DNA of 55,823 nucleotides, from positions 1 to 55,823 of the forward strand of contig JAFYYG010000036.1 in the NCBI GenBank assembly GCA_017557625.1. The letters run 5' to 3'. The DNA is from Muribaculaceae bacterium. Its GTDB lineage: Bacteria; Bacteroidota; Bacteroidia; Bacteroidales; Muribaculaceae. Of this stretch, positions 31,589 through 35,518 are shown piece by piece. Position numbers and translations under genes: made by a program. The first letter of the stretch is position 1. Each line of letters starts with the position of its first letter. The notes beneath the pieces are model-generated. The model did not search any database. It was given only the letters and a program-made list of their open reading frames with translations, and was not told the origin of the DNA.

Positions 31589-31619
31589 TTGCGTAGAAAG
31601 ATATTTGTTGTTATCTTTG
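31589..31619 (+). promoter_or_regulatory. Promoter of the CXXX precursor genes
   Basis: TTG at 31589-31591, 20 bases, then TATCTTTG at 31612-31619: a good Bacteroidetes promoter. The ATG of the first precursor is at 31649, so the leader is about 20-25 bases. No other perfect promoter is seen before the maturase genes. Confidence 0.75.
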
Positions 31620-31648: not shown

Positions 31649-31963
31649 ATGAAAAATAAGGATATAGAATCGCGACGTGAGTTCTTCAAGAGTACCGCAC
31701 GCAAAGTGTTGCCTGTGGTGGGCGCTTTGGCGGTAGGGAAGGCGCTATTTGCCGGCGAGACTCACGAGAGCCACAAATCGATGGATTGCAACAATGGTTG
31801 CGATGGCGGCTGCTGGGGCGGCTGTGGTAATGATTGCCGAGCCTCGTGTTCTGGCTCCTGCGATGGCGATTGCTATGGCGACTGCCATAAAACCTGTAGT
31901 GGCAGCTGCGACGGATACTGTGCCGGCACTTGCTCCGACACTTGCGCTAACAGTAGCTCGTGA
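31649..31963 (+). CDS. CXXX-repeat RiPP precursor 1
   Basis: 104 residues. The leader (1-46) begins MKNKDIESRREFFKSTARK and runs into a hydrophobic stretch (VLPVVGALAVGKALFAG), which together look like a twin-arginine signal. The core has 14 Cys at residues 47, 51, 55 and every fourth residue to 99. Between them are mostly Gly, Asp, Ser, Asn and Thr with single Trp, Tyr, His and Arg, and the tail is ANSSS. Known CXXX-repeat peptides are radical SAM targets in which thioether links are expected. The adjacent maturase genes make that role very likely. The mature product and its activity are unknown. Confidence 0.85.
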   Translation: MKNKDIESRREFFKSTARKVLPVVGALAVGKALFAGETHESHKSMDCNNGCDGGCWGGCGNDCRASCSGSCDGDCYGDCHKTCSGSCDGYCAGTCSDTCANSSS

Positions 31964-32024
31964 TAACTGAGTTTTCAATTTAAGTTATTAGTTGACAAGT
32001 GTTAGAAACGTAAATAAATTGATT

Positions 32025-32330
32025 ATGGATAACAAAGAAATACAATCACGCCGTAAGTTCTTCAAAAGCGCAGCCAAGAAGGCACTGCCTGTTGTTGGGG
32101 CGATAGCCGCAAGCCAGTTGCCGTTTGTGAGCAATGCCCATGAGAGCCGCAACACGATGGGTTGCTCCGACAGCTGCTATGGCAACTGCTATGGCGACTG
32201 CTCTGGCACGTGTTACACAGGCTGCACAGGCTCTTGTGACGGTTCCTGCCGAGGAGGCTGCCAGAACAGCTGCGACGGTGGCTGCATGGGCGACTGCTAC
32301 GGCAGCTGCCGCAGTAGCAGCAGTCGATAA
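32025..32330 (+). CDS. CXXX-repeat RiPP precursor 2
   Basis: 101 residues from the ATG at 32025. An upstream in-frame codon at 31992 would add 11 residues with no match to precursor 1. The leader (IQSRRKFFKSAAKKALPVVG) is a close copy of that in precursor 1, and the first Cys is again residue 47. There are 13 Cys at strict four-residue steps to residue 95, then RSSSSR. Spacer triplets are Gly/Asp/Ser-rich with Tyr, Met and Gln. It lies 61 bases after precursor 1, so the pair looks like a tandem duplication whose core has diverged. SNA-HES near residue 38 is a possible signal-peptidase site. Confidence 0.85.
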   Translation: MDNKEIQSRRKFFKSAAKKALPVVGAIAASQLPFVSNAHESRNTMGCSDSCYGNCYGDCSGTCYTGCTGSCDGSCRGGCQNSCDGGCMGDCYGSCRSSSSR

Positions 32331-32488
32331 GGGTAGCGAGTAAGATACCCAGACTGGTCGAATACCCGACATTGTGAGAAGACCATGCTAGACCTTCGAA
32401 GATGGTCGCAGCTTGGTCCTTGCTGTATCTTATGAGATGTGCCTCGATGAGGAATTTCATCGCTGATGGTTAATGTTTTTATCTACAA
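32331..32488 (+). other. Structured spacer after the precursors
   Basis: 158 bases without a gene. Short complementary words are dense: TAAGATAC with GTATCTTA, and GACCAT or GACC with ATGGTC around a CTTCGAAG palindrome (near 32380-32410). The region could fold and reduce read-through from the precursors into the enzyme genes. This is inferred from complementarity only. Confidence 0.4.
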
Positions 32489-32739
32489 TAATATAAGGTG
32501 AGTTCGATGAATTTGTTTTCTGATAATCATTGCGTTAGCAGTTCCCCCTAAGATAGAGGGGGGGAGTATGACAGACTCAAGGATTTACAATTTCACTATT
32601 GTCATGCCCCTCAGTCACTTCGTGCCAGCGGATTCCTCCCCTGCCTGAGGGGAGGTGCCGTAGGCGGAGGGGAGGGAGCCTTAGGGGAGCAGCTGATACA
32701 CAGCAATTTAGTTTCGTCGAACTCACGTTAATATAAGGT
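32489..32739. mobile_element. MITE-like insertion with 11-base direct repeat
   Basis: TAATATAAGGT occurs at 32489-32499 and again at 32729-32739. Just inside are inverted ends GTGAGTTCGATGAA (32498-32511) and TTCGTCGAACTCAC (32713-32726), 13 of 14 bases matching. The inside has a further inverted pair around CCCCCTAAG and CTTAGGGGAG-type blocks and carries the G-rich repeat also seen in the PAP2 gene. No open frame for a transposase fits in its roughly 230 bases. The right direct repeat restores the AT-rich leader of the maturase gene. Confidence 0.65.
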
Positions 32740-32745
32740 ATAAAA

Positions 32746-33945
32746 ATGAGCGAGACAGATATTAAAATAAAAGACAGCACAGCATCGTGGCAAGATGGTG
32801 TGGCAAAGACCATCACCTTCATTGTCACCAAGGACTGCCAACTGGCTTGCAAATACTGCTACTTGGTGGGCAAGAACGAGAAAGAGCGCATGTCGTGGGA
32901 CGTGGCAAAGCGAGCCATTGACTACATCCTTGACCACGAGCGCGATTTTCCAGAGAAATCGGTGATTTTTGAGTTCATTGGTGGCGAGCCGTTCCTTGAG
33001 ATAGACCTTATCGACCGCATCTGCGACTATATCAAGGTGGAGCTATACAGCCGCTGTCATCATTGGTTCGACTCTTACCGCTTCAGTTTCTCGACTAACG
33101 GCATAAACTACCACACCGATAAGGTGCAAGCATTCATCAATAAGAATATCAGCCATTTGAGCATCGGCATCACTATCGACGGCACCCAGCGCAAGCACGA
33201 CCTTAACCGAGTGTGGAAGGGCGTCGAGGAGCGGGGAAGCTATCTAGATGTGGTGCGTAACATCCCGCTGTGGTTGCAGCAATTCCCTGAAGAGGCTACA
33301 AAAGTTACCATCAGCAGCGCTGATATACCATATATAAAGGAGAGCGTACTTCATCTTTATGGTCTTGGTATCCATGCGGTTAATATCAATGTGGTGTTTG
33401 AAAATGTGTGGAAGGATGGCGATGACAAGCTCTTCGAGAATCAGCTGATGCTGCTTGCTGATGACATTATTGATGGTGGCTATTACAAGGACTATGCCTG
33501 CTCGTTCTTCAGCGAGAATATTGGCAAACCGTTAGATCCTGAGCGAGAGAATAATAACTGGTGCGGGGCCGGGAAGATGCTGGCTGTTGACGCAGCGGGA
33601 AATTTTTATCCTTGCACACGATTTGCAGCTTATTCTTTGCGGTCGAAGGAGCCAATAGTCATTGGAAATGTGAGCGACGGCATCGACAAGAATAAGCTCC
33701 GTCCGTTCCTCGCACTTGATCGCATTACTCAAAGCCCTGACAAATGCAAGACCTGTAATGTGGCAAGCGGCTGCGCATGGTGCCAGGGTGAGAACTACGA
33801 TGCGGCAGAGACTAATACCATCTATCAGCGCGCTACAGCTATCTGCCTGATGCATAAAGCAAGAGTGCACGCCAACAATTACTACTGGAACAAACTCTAC
33901 CGCAAACTTGAGATGGACGGACGAAGCACAAAGTGCGAAGGATAA
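32746..33945 (+). CDS. Radical SAM/SPASM maturase, CXXX-repeat target
   Basis: 399 residues. The radical SAM cluster motif is CQLACKYC (Cys31, 35, 38), followed by FEFIGGEPFLE for SAM binding. The C-terminal SPASM domain binds two more 4Fe-4S clusters through Cys273, 290, 334, 337, 343, 346 and 367 (C-x16-C, C-x2-C-x5-C-x2-C, C). This matches maturases of the family named for CXXX-repeat targets, thought to build thioether bonds from Cys to neighbouring residues. It sits 415 bases after the second precursor and 47 before the second maturase. Substrate assignment rests on the adjacent precursors. Confidence 0.9.
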   Translation: MSETDIKIKDSTASWQDGVAKTITFIVTKDCQLACKYCYLVGKNEKERMSWDVAKRAIDYILDHERDFPEKSVIFEFIGGEPFLEIDLIDRICDYIKVELYSRCHHWFDSYRFSFSTNGINYHTDKVQAFINKNISHLSIGITIDGTQRKHDLNRVWKGVEERGSYLDVVRNIPLWLQQFPEEATKVTISSADIPYIKESVLHLYGLGIHAVNINVVFENVWKDGDDKLFENQLMLLADDIIDGGYYKDYACSFFSENIGKPLDPERENNNWCGAGKMLAVDAAGNFYPCTRFAAYSLRSKEPIVIGNVSDGIDKNKLRPFLALDRITQSPDKCKTCNVASGCAWCQGENYDAAETNTIYQRATAICLMHKARVHANNYYWNKLYRKLEMDGRSTKCEG

Positions 33946-33992
33946 GTACACTAATTCCGATTTTCTATTCCACAAAAACGATTAATGAAATT

Positions 33993-34931
33993 ATGCTCCA
34001 ATACTTAGTAATATTACTCGACGACACCAGCGTGAGTTTTTGTCATTATGATGTGACTAAACCTGAACGTCGCTTGATAAGCCTTGATGATTTGCGGCAA
34101 GGTATCCGTTTTGGCATGATGGAGAATCTGATGATTCAGTTTATCTATCCCGATTATGCTCTGCCACAGGAATATCTCGATGTGATTGACACCATCGACC
34201 ATAGCAACATCAAGCCACTGTCGGCACTTGACTGCGAGACCGATATTGTAGTGGTTGATGGGTGGAAATACAATGTCGCCAAGCTCAATGGTGCTGTGGT
34301 GGTGCTGAGAACGAGTTGGAACCAGCTAAGCAAAAACCATAACAATCTAAAAGGCCTGCTCAATGTGGTGATGCGTCTCAGTGTGGTAATAACTGATGTG
34401 GAGCGCATGACTGCCAGTGATCATGAGCAGTATAAGGCTGTGCTTGAGTTACTTGGCAAAGATGTGGAATCGATATGTCTCAGTGGTAAGTCACCACAGT
34501 TCAATCTGCTCACTGACCGTTTGATGCTCACTGAGATGAACAACTGCGGTGCTGGAGATATGACTATCACTCTCGCGCCTAACGGCAAGTTCTACATTTG
34601 CCCAGCGTTCTATTATGAAAACGAGGCAGACAGCGTGGGCGACCTCAACAATGGTCTTAACATAAAGAACCGACAGCTCTACAGCCTTGACCATGCACCC
34701 ATCTGCCGCAAGTGTGACGCTTGGCAGTGCCGCCGCTGCGTCTGGCTCAACCGTAAGACCACACTCGAGGTCAATATCCCGAGCCGTGAGCAATGCGTTG
34801 CTGCCCACCTAGAGCGCAACACCTCACGGCAACTGATGCTCTCGCTGCGCAGCAAAGGCACCTTCCTGCCTGATATAGAGGAAATCAAAGAAATTGACTA
34901 TCTTGACCCCTTTGAAATTATAAGACAATGA
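33993..34931 (+). CDS. CXXX-repeat peptide maturase, SPASM-like without radical SAM motif
   Basis: 312 residues from the ATG at 33993 (MLQYLVILLDDTSVSFCHYD); a longer frame upstream adds an unlikely N-terminus. No CxxxCxxC radical SAM site is present. The C-terminal third has a SPASM-like set: Cys185, Cys203 (in GKFYIC), CRKC at 238-241, CRRC at 246-249 and Cys268. The protein therefore looks like a companion that keeps auxiliary cluster ligands but has lost or replaced the SAM core. It resembles the family called CXXX repeat peptide maturase. It is 47 bases after the radical SAM gene and overlaps the next gene by 4 bases. Confidence 0.8.
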   Translation: MLQYLVILLDDTSVSFCHYDVTKPERRLISLDDLRQGIRFGMMENLMIQFIYPDYALPQEYLDVIDTIDHSNIKPLSALDCETDIVVVDGWKYNVAKLNGAVVVLRTSWNQLSKNHNNLKGLLNVVMRLSVVITDVERMTASDHEQYKAVLELLGKDVESICLSGKSPQFNLLTDRLMLTEMNNCGAGDMTITLAPNGKFYICPAFYYENEADSVGDLNNGLNIKNRQLYSLDHAPICRKCDAWQCRRCVWLNRKTTLEVNIPSREQCVAAHLERNTSRQLMLSLRSKGTFLPDIEEIKEIDYLDPFEIIRQ

Positions 34932-35200
34932 AGAAATTAGTAGGAAAAGTCACTGAAGATGAGCGCAATGAGATTCAGGCACTATTCGAACGACGCAACG
35001 GATTGAGAGAACTCGCACAAGTGCTCACACCTGATAATGTAGAACTCTACGACCGTCTGGTGAAAGATATGGGCGAGAACGCCACGTTGTTCCAGAACTG
35101 GTGGAATAGGATGGCAGAGAAATATAAATGGGAAAGCGCAGATGGCGGAAACTGGGAAATTAACTTCAACAACTGCGAAATCTTCTTGAAAACTGTTTAA
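34928..35200 (+). CDS. CXXX-repeat peptide modification system protein
   Basis: 90 residues. It is a small acidic-basic helical protein, KLVGKVTEDERNEIQALFER at the N-terminus, ending WWNRMAEKYKW, GGNWEINFNNCEIFL. It matches the third member of CXXX systems, whose role is unknown; binding the leader or bridging the enzymes is possible. The start overlaps the previous stop (ATGA at 34928-34931), so the two are translationally coupled. The frame after the stop, shifted by one base, stays open and protein-like to 35291. Confidence 0.8.
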   Translation: MKKLVGKVTEDERNEIQALFERRNGLRELAQVLTPDNVELYDRLVKDMGENATLFQNWWNRMAEKYKWESADGGNWEINFNNCEIFLKTV

Positions 35201-35291
35201 GAAGCGTGCGGAACTTGACCATGAGATAGACAAAACTCTCGCAGAGATACAGAAAATTTTGGGTATTAACATCAATATAGAGAAACTATGA
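35190..35291 (+). pseudogene. Orphan C-terminal fragment after the CXXX operon
   Basis: In the +1 frame relative to the previous gene, 33 codons read KLFKKRAELDHEIDKTLAEI then QKILGININIEKL and stop. There is no start codon. Either one A was lost from the AAAA at 35189-35192 and this is the true tail of the modification protein, or it is the tail of a deleted upstream gene such as an HsdM-type methylase, which often ends in such a charged helix. The ATGA join to the next remnant favours a lost operon. Confidence 0.4.
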
Positions 35292-35398
35292 GCGAAAAGA
35301 ATCTCCAATTAATGCCTACAGAATCTCAGATGCAAGATTTGCAACAGATTATAGAATAGGCCCGAAGTCGTGTTGCAGCATCAGCCAACTATAAATAA
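35288..35398 (+). pseudogene. DUF1016/YhcG-like nuclease remnant with amber codon
   Basis: An ATG at 35288 gives 23 residues ending MQDLQQIIE, then TAG at 35357-35359, then ARSRVAASANYK and a TAA. Read through, IIE-x-ARSRVAASAN resembles the N-terminus of YhcG/DUF1016 proteins, which carry a PD-(D/E)XK nuclease domain and often sit in type I restriction loci. Everything after residue about 36 is missing. The assignment is by remembered motif. Confidence 0.4.
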
Positions 35399-35401
35399 AA
35401 A

Positions 35402-35438
35402 ATCAGCTAATAAGCTGAGTATTCGTTTATTAGCTGAT
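35402..35438 (-). terminator. Terminator of tRNA-Arg
   Basis: ATCAGCTAATAA (35402-35413) pairs with TTATTAGCTGAT (35427-35438). On the minus strand a T-run follows the stem. It lies just past the 3' end of the tRNA. Confidence 0.8.
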
Positions 35439-35446
35439 ATAAATCG

Positions 35447-35518
35447 TACTCCGACTGGGAATCGAACCCAGATTTTAGGTTTAGGAAACCCACGTTCTAT
35501 CCGTTGAACTATCAGAGC
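35447..35518 (-). tRNA. tRNA-Arg (CCT)
   Basis: A complete cloverleaf: acceptor GCTCTGA with TCGGAGT (two G-T pairs), anticodon loop TTCCTAA, and T arm CTGGG, TTCGATT, CCCAG. The discriminator is A and CCA is not encoded. A TACCTTTG promoter box lies upstream and a terminator downstream. It reads CCU/AGG arginine codons. Confidence 0.93.

Follow-up and report, generated by a model that had tools for sequence, protein, structure and literature searches.

The stretch of DNA analysed here, hereafter the window, comprises the 55,823 nucleotides of contig JAFYYG010000036.1 (positions 1 to 55,823 of the forward strand, assembly GCA_017557625.1) from a gut-type Muribaculaceae bacterium, and it carries a five-gene CXXX-repeat locus for ribosomally synthesized and post-translationally modified peptides (RiPPs): two precursor genes encoding ladders with a cysteine at every fourth residue, followed by genes of the maturation families TIGR04115, TIGR04119, and TIGR04116. 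This is a known type of system, so the locus is ordinary by itself; what stands out is its link with twin-arginine translocation (Tat). From the leaders, the gene linkage, and the phylogeny, we consider it probable that the products of the locus are cross-linked peptides, exported from the cytoplasm already folded via the Tat pathway. An earlier description, made from the letters of the window (the sequence-only reading), missed both the Tat-like leader and the tatA and tatC genes (together tatAC) that usually extend such loci.

We compared 86 non-redundant CXXX loci, the window included (it is also counted in the 139 precursor frames and the 65 loci with room given below). They comprise the best 80 of 294 by likeness to the window maturase, together with loci from genomes of the genus and order, and are a non-random sample; one locus (G066), in which a contig end truncates the maturase, was excluded. 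TIGR04116 scored beyond its cut-off in 18 of the 120 relatives searched, own genome counted. An order-wide draw of 393 genomes served as a check on the choice of loci, and two genomes, G108 and G110, occur both in this draw and among the 86.

The two window precursors share one layout: a charged start, the motif SRRxFFK, a run of uncharged residues, and finally the ladder. Set beside the Tat consensus, S/T-R-R-x-F-L-K (PMC3383694), this leader resembles a Tat signal peptide in sequence. A strict twin-arginine motif was found in 129 of the 139 precursor frames (which come from 79 of the 86 loci) versus 11 of 2,043 control frames drawn from these loci, and all 129 have an uncharged stretch of at least 11 residues. 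Counting two adjacent arginines (RR) anywhere upstream of the ladder raises the number to 135 of 139, a few of which are not Tat-like. What comes after the hydrophobic stretch is an A-x-A-like site in 95 of the 129 frames, a lipobox pattern in 21, and neither in 13. One lipobox pattern (L061) is probably false by eye; the remaining 20 have at least one acidic residue within five positions after the cysteine (at least two in 17 cases), much like the signal that directs lipoprotein export in Bacteroidetes (PMC5080379). RR leaders ending in a lipobox also occur in two more distant loci of the same order (L163 and L164) and in two loci from another class of the phylum (L168 and L169).

The gene tatC is present in 59 of the 86 loci, in every case on the strand of the maturase gene and with tatA lying between TIGR04116 and tatC (the tatC frame follows the TIGR04116 stop at a median distance of 176 bases); in locus L114, the two proteins match the Pfam models TatA_B_E and TatC. 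Because 9 of these 59 loci have less than 1.5 kb downstream of the TIGR04116 gene, the like-for-like figure is that for loci with at least 1.5 kb there (loci with room): tatA and tatC follow TIGR04116 in 50 of 65, window counted. Fifteen of the 86 loci, the window among them, lack tatC despite such room; of the rest, six show no TIGR04116 gene in the stretch examined, four end in tatA at a contig edge, and two lie near an edge with neither gene. In the order-wide draw, 13 genomes, including the window's own, scored beyond the TIGR04116 cut-off, and tatC adjoins TIGR04116 in 8 of the other 12; in G450, G455, and G110, the tatC of the locus is the sole tatC found in the genome. A phylum-wide draw gave TIGR04116 in 3 of 395 genomes, own genome counted, and the other two have fused TIGR04119-TIGR04116 genes and no tatA or tatC match in the 15 kb examined. 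In Xylanibacter rarus strain 109 (L080), the genes for all three maturation proteins are accompanied by tatA, tatC, and several precursor genes. Two further arrangements of tat genes were seen: L047 (3237-9182) has repeated sets of TIGR04119, TIGR04116, and tatA, several precursors, and a single tatC, and metagenome-assembled genomes titled Ruminococcus, Clostridium, and Clostridia (L061, L102, and L109), possibly misnamed bins, hold Bacteroidales-type CXXX loci with tatAC.

A quick TatC tree (78 rows, several long branches) places 48 of 55 CXXX-linked TatCs, together with a relic from the window's genome, in one clade (SH-aLRT, the Shimodaira-Hasegawa-like approximate likelihood-ratio test, 95), apart from a housekeeping TatC clade (support 100) in which 15 of the 16 rows belong to the genus. 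The other seven CXXX-linked TatCs, namely a group of five, L072, and L116 (next to a housekeeping row), lie outside the CXXX clade, so that, judging from this tree, tatC may have been recruited to CXXX loci more than once. Loci without tatAC are scattered on the maturase tree (12 label changes versus a shuffled mean of 14.1; 11 with edge cases uncounted), which suggests repeated loss or gain of tatAC rather than one old type.

RiPPs are usually described as being exported by ATP-binding cassette (ABC) exporters once a protease has removed the leader. The strongest argument for TatAC as the exporter of the RR-leader peptides is that both loci with non-RR precursor-like frames hold an ABC exporter. 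In G108 (L127), from the same order, the maturases are fused, the cysteine-rich precursor has no RR (33.4 bits with TIGR04118, cut-off 35), and an ABC exporter and a subtilase-family protein are encoded. The plasmid NC_013164.1 of Anaerococcus prevotii (L166 204-4287) carries a fused maturase, a TIGR04116 gene divided between two frames, an ABC transporter, and a small cysteine-bearing open reading frame that has no RR and matches no family model; its CXXX genes sit beside a class III lanthipeptide cluster. Other variant loci were noted as well. In the other class of the phylum, a TIGR04119-TIGR04116 fusion (L168 6726-8273 and L169 6436-7974) lies beside a precursor with RR and lipobox. In G307 (L160 4692-4970 and 4356-4631), the TIGR04116 gene comes right after a small cysteine-rich open reading frame, with no maturase match within the 10 kb examined.

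Concerning the proposed cargo, the three maturation proteins of the window score beyond their curated NCBIfam cut-offs (TIGR04115, 610.2 bits, cut-off 350; TIGR04119, 233.8 bits, cut-off 150; TIGR04116, 96.2 bits, cut-off 50), which bears out the assignment to a CXXX-repeat RiPP locus made by the sequence-only reading. That reading had proposed a search with profiles of the precursor, maturase, and modification families; all three maturation families were recovered, but neither precursor reached the cut-off of the precursor model TIGR04117, and the repeat model TIGR04114 (cut-off 20) was passed by precursor 2 (26.2 bits) and just missed by precursor 1 (19.7 bits). TIGR04117 is one among several precursor models and was not taken as decisive for membership in the system; it also misses three of four full-length or near-full relatives with the same type of leader. 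The ladders are as regular as had been claimed, with 14 and 13 cysteines placed exactly four positions apart at every step (residues 47-95 in precursor 2). Given the cysteine counts in the last 64 and 61 residues, the chance of a perfect ladder is 2.5e-13 for precursor 1 and 2.0e-12 for precursor 2.

A radical S-adenosylmethionine (SAM)/SPASM enzyme, a second cysteine-rich enzyme, and a 90-residue protein had been proposed to follow the precursors on the same strand. Strand and families agree, but the word enzyme is not supported for the TIGR04119 protein. The CxxxCxxC motif of TIGR04115 is kept in 86 of 86 loci; it is missing from the TIGR04119 protein of the window, and none of 82 separate proteins of that family has it in the first 60 residues. 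Since its predicted fold is of the radical-SAM/SPASM type (top solved match 5wgg) and the motif is absent, a partner role is more likely for the TIGR04119 protein than a catalytic one. Its long open reading frame opens at GTG 33933; because relatives mostly share an MLQYL-like beginning, which corresponds to ATG 33993 here, we set the start at the latter. By sequence, 5wgg, titled 'Structural Insights into Thioether Bond Formation', is also the best-scoring solved relative of the TIGR04115 maturase; we take it to be the SCIFF maturase CteB. Of the other families, the three that the TIGR04115 maturase matches best all stay under their cut-offs (PapB model NF047865, 193.2 bits, cut-off 340; CcpM, 141; SCIFF, 110). 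By analogy with 5wgg and PapB, it is reasonable to expect thioethers at the ladder cysteines.

We propose that TIGR04115, aided by its TIGR04119 partner and TIGR04116, would modify the ladder cysteines in the cytoplasm, most likely to thioethers, and that the resulting rigid peptide would suit Tat rather than the general secretory (Sec) pathway. TatC would recognise SRRxFFK, and signal peptidase I would cleave near the A-x-A-like site so that the ladder remains in the periplasm; in the lipobox relatives, the product would be a lipoprotein. In the window organism, export would go through the housekeeping Tat system, because the CXXX-type tatC survives there solely as a broken relic at another site.

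Tat cargo could also be folded for another reason. The ladder cysteines might hold a metal or iron-sulphur cofactor, or carry a modification other than a thioether, and need Tat because the loaded protein is exported folded, as classical Tat cargo is. The proteins that depend on Tat are mainly ones that take up a cofactor while still in the cytoplasm (PMC7317946), and bufferins, cysteine-rich RiPPs with Sec signals, chelate copper (PMC12452194). We nevertheless regard this explanation as unlikely, given that the best score of the maturase with any foreign family, though under cut-off, is that with the model of the thioether-forming PapB, that its solved relative is 5wgg, and that no metal-handling gene was recognised among the eight recurrent neighbour clusters, as judged without a scan of a family library.

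Several observations weigh against Tat export. Among the 65 loci with room, the window and 14 others have no tatAC, and in the order-wide draw four of the 12 genomes (G307, G461, G331, and G108) have no tatC beside the locus. Both window precursors fall under the TIGR04117 cut-off of 50 (44.1 bits for precursor 1 and 38.5 bits for precursor 2). Among the leaders, the curated Tat models give weak matches (E up to 1: TIGR01409 in 12 of 83, TIGR02811 in 22 of 83, and PF10518 in 1 of 83); window precursor 1 is not among the leaders matched by TIGR01409 or PF10518, and neither model was listed in family scans of the full-length window precursors. Judged by eye, precursor 1 has a weak signal peptidase site (LFA). 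These 83 aligned leaders, out of 134, were picked by their RR pattern, so the invariance of RR among them is partly due to selection; the figure free of this choice is the 135 of 139 given above.

The weak scores of the Tat models favour a reading in which the RR leader is a recognition tag for the maturase alone, with an incidental likeness to Tat signals and any export by another route; so does the finding that the leader belongs to the precursor model TIGR04117, which matches 78 of the 83 leaders (E up to 1). This is distinctly unlikely in view of the tatA and tatC genes of most related loci, of the ABC exporter that takes their place in the two loci with non-RR precursor-like frames, and of the lipobox right past the hydrophobic stretch in about 20 precursors, which is hard to explain without a signal peptide.

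The window locus (contig C22 of genome G000, a draft that is 88.46% complete) has neither tatA nor tatC beside it, nor do these occur elsewhere in the window. Housekeeping tatA and tatC genes are found on contig C35 of the same genome, the TatC being recognised by Pfam as well. Contig C58 (L112 7864-8279) carries a tatC relic whose match to its CXXX counterpart in G042 covers residues 5-30 and 161-262, the middle being missing. About 2.3 kb past it, 304 bases (L112 10583-10886) are 82% identical to the stretch just 5' of the first precursor of G042, and this stretch is single-copy in each of the two genomes. Relic and flank, today separated by other genes, are apparently what is left of a fuller CXXX locus. 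In the maturase tree, the window falls in a group of four (support 98) with L129 (G068) and L033, both without tatAC, and L034, which has tatAC.

With its dedicated translocase lost and the remains of an apparently fuller locus on C58, the window locus could be a remnant, neither exported nor in use any more. This is very doubtful, as all five genes are open, loci lacking tatAC occur in scattered parts of the maturase tree, and housekeeping tatAC genes are available. The window maturase is also 83% identical to that of L129 with synonymous sites saturated, which points to purifying selection over this divergence, so the locus does not look dead. An antimicrobial thioether RiPP of the ordinary type that ABC exporters handle, with export in trans, is a highly improbable product of the locus: the Anaerococcus and G108 type loci do hold an ABC exporter, and G108 a subtilase-family protein as well, but no exporter or peptidase gene was seen in the window from the precursors to tRNA-Arg, and the window leader has an RR and a hydrophobic stretch, unlike the precursor-like frames of those loci.

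Turning back to Tat export of folded ladders, we lean slightly towards the wider view that Bacteroidota have their own translocase for cross-linked RiPPs, in which a specialised TatAC, encoded together with a pair of active and inactive radical-SAM proteins, would export rigid ladders folded and anchor the lipobox forms as lipoproteins, possibly at the surface. The window species would have lost this translocase and would rely on general Tat. If so, a RiPP leader doubling as a Tat signal would join cross-linking to folded export and explain why cross-linking has to come first; the product would act in the envelope, perhaps at the surface, and the function of the CXXX family would become testable in strains with full loci. 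A radical-SAM protein without the catalytic motif, beside an active one, is a second tractable question.

The features of the window locus are listed in Table 1. All five genes are open, in agreement with the sequence-only reading, which had found no obvious inactivating change. It had also called the locus complete, compact, and provided with a good promoter. Complete is the wrong label for a locus without the tatA and tatC of most relatives, and compact does not fully apply to one in which a spacer of 415 bases, containing an interspersed repeat, separates precursor 2 from the maturase gene. A promoter-like match is present, with weak statistics: the pattern, which we take to be a Bacteroidota promoter consensus, occurs three times in the window versus a mean of 0.68 in shuffled sequences, 4 of 100 of which reach three.

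Table 1 Positions of the CXXX locus features and adjoining elements in the window.
Feature	Position	Strand	Remark
Promoter-like match TTG-N20-TATCTTTG	31589..31619	+	ends 29 bases 5' of the precursor 1 start codon
Precursor 1, 104 residues, Tat-type leader and 14-cysteine CXXX ladder	31649..31963	+	
Twin-arginine motif SRREFFK, precursor 1	31670..31690	+	from sequence
14-cysteine ladder, four-residue steps, residues 47-99, precursor 1	31787..31954	+	
Precursor 2, 101 residues, Tat-type leader and 13-cysteine CXXX ladder	32025..32330	+	
Twin-arginine motif SRRKFFK, precursor 2	32046..32066	+	from sequence
Interspersed repeat, spacer between precursor 2 and maturase gene	32510..32740	+	23 matching pieces genome-wide, itself counted
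Radical SAM/SPASM maturase, TIGR04115	32746..33945	+	CxxxCxxC at residues 31-38
TIGR04119 protein, predicted radical-SAM/SPASM fold without CxxxCxxC (putative pseudo-radical-SAM partner)	33993..34931	+	
TIGR04116 accessory protein, 90 residues, modelled as a helical hairpin with short strands	34928..35200	+	model mean pLDDT (predicted local distance difference test) 94.7
Site of tatA and tatC in most relatives, neither present	35201..35445	no strand	
tRNA-Arg	35446-35518	minus	

A clpS gene also lies downstream of the locus, and the opposite-strand genes upstream are presumably hutH-like and hutI-like. A small open frame (35291-35361) begins where a coding-like frame from about 35200 ends, and this stretch has no match among the related loci compared. 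Around the related precursors, genes with signal-like N-termini lie 5' on the same strand in L050, L054, L055, L059, L060, L084, L085, L094, and others, and several of these end, by eye, like outer-membrane barrels. A second gene set near the precursors, also recognised by eye, shares a terminal I-x-PY (L012, L052, L090, L096, L118, L120, and others). The first recurrent neighbour cluster is not one family: it consists mostly of precursors below the six-cysteine rule chained with secreted proteins. In L114 (4051-4085), a DUF805b RNA (Rfam RF02914) lies 5' of the CXXX precursor; it was absent from 15 further loci checked.

The window locus shares with the NCBIfam CXXX-repeat RiPP system (TIGR04114 to TIGR04119) its three maturation proteins and the cysteine at every fourth residue; it differs in precursors that score under TIGR04117, and most of its relatives add tatA and tatC, which the family names do not mention. 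Our literature search found no account of Tat leaders or TatAC tied to CXXX loci; the founding paper of Haft and Basu (2011) was outside its reach, so priority is uncertain. The ABC-exported CXXX loci of G108 and Anaerococcus have the same maturase and TIGR04116 families as the window, and differ in their fused maturases, ABC exporter, and non-RR precursor-like frame, and in G108 also in the subtilase-family protein.

Like the window maturase, the PapB and SCIFF thioether maturases combine radical SAM and SPASM domains and act on a cysteine-rich substrate. PapB joins cysteine to aspartate or glutamate by thioethers in CX3D motifs (PMC9413430), whereas the residue four past each ladder cysteine here is another cysteine, and aspartate makes up 4-5% of each X position family-wide. 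Bufferins and the RiPP-lipoprotein hybrids made by multinuclear non-haem iron-dependent oxidative (MNIO) enzymes resemble the proposed products in being RiPPs with a cleavable signal peptide or a lipobox (PMC12452194, PMC12636315); their enzymes differ, bufferin precursors carry Sec signals, and the main text of neither source mentions Tat or a twin arginine. An operon of TatA and TatC linked to the genes of its cargo is known from Bacillus TatAdCd and TatAyCy (PMC3827258); the cargo there, for example the phosphodiesterase PhoD, is not a RiPP, unlike that proposed for the CXXX loci.

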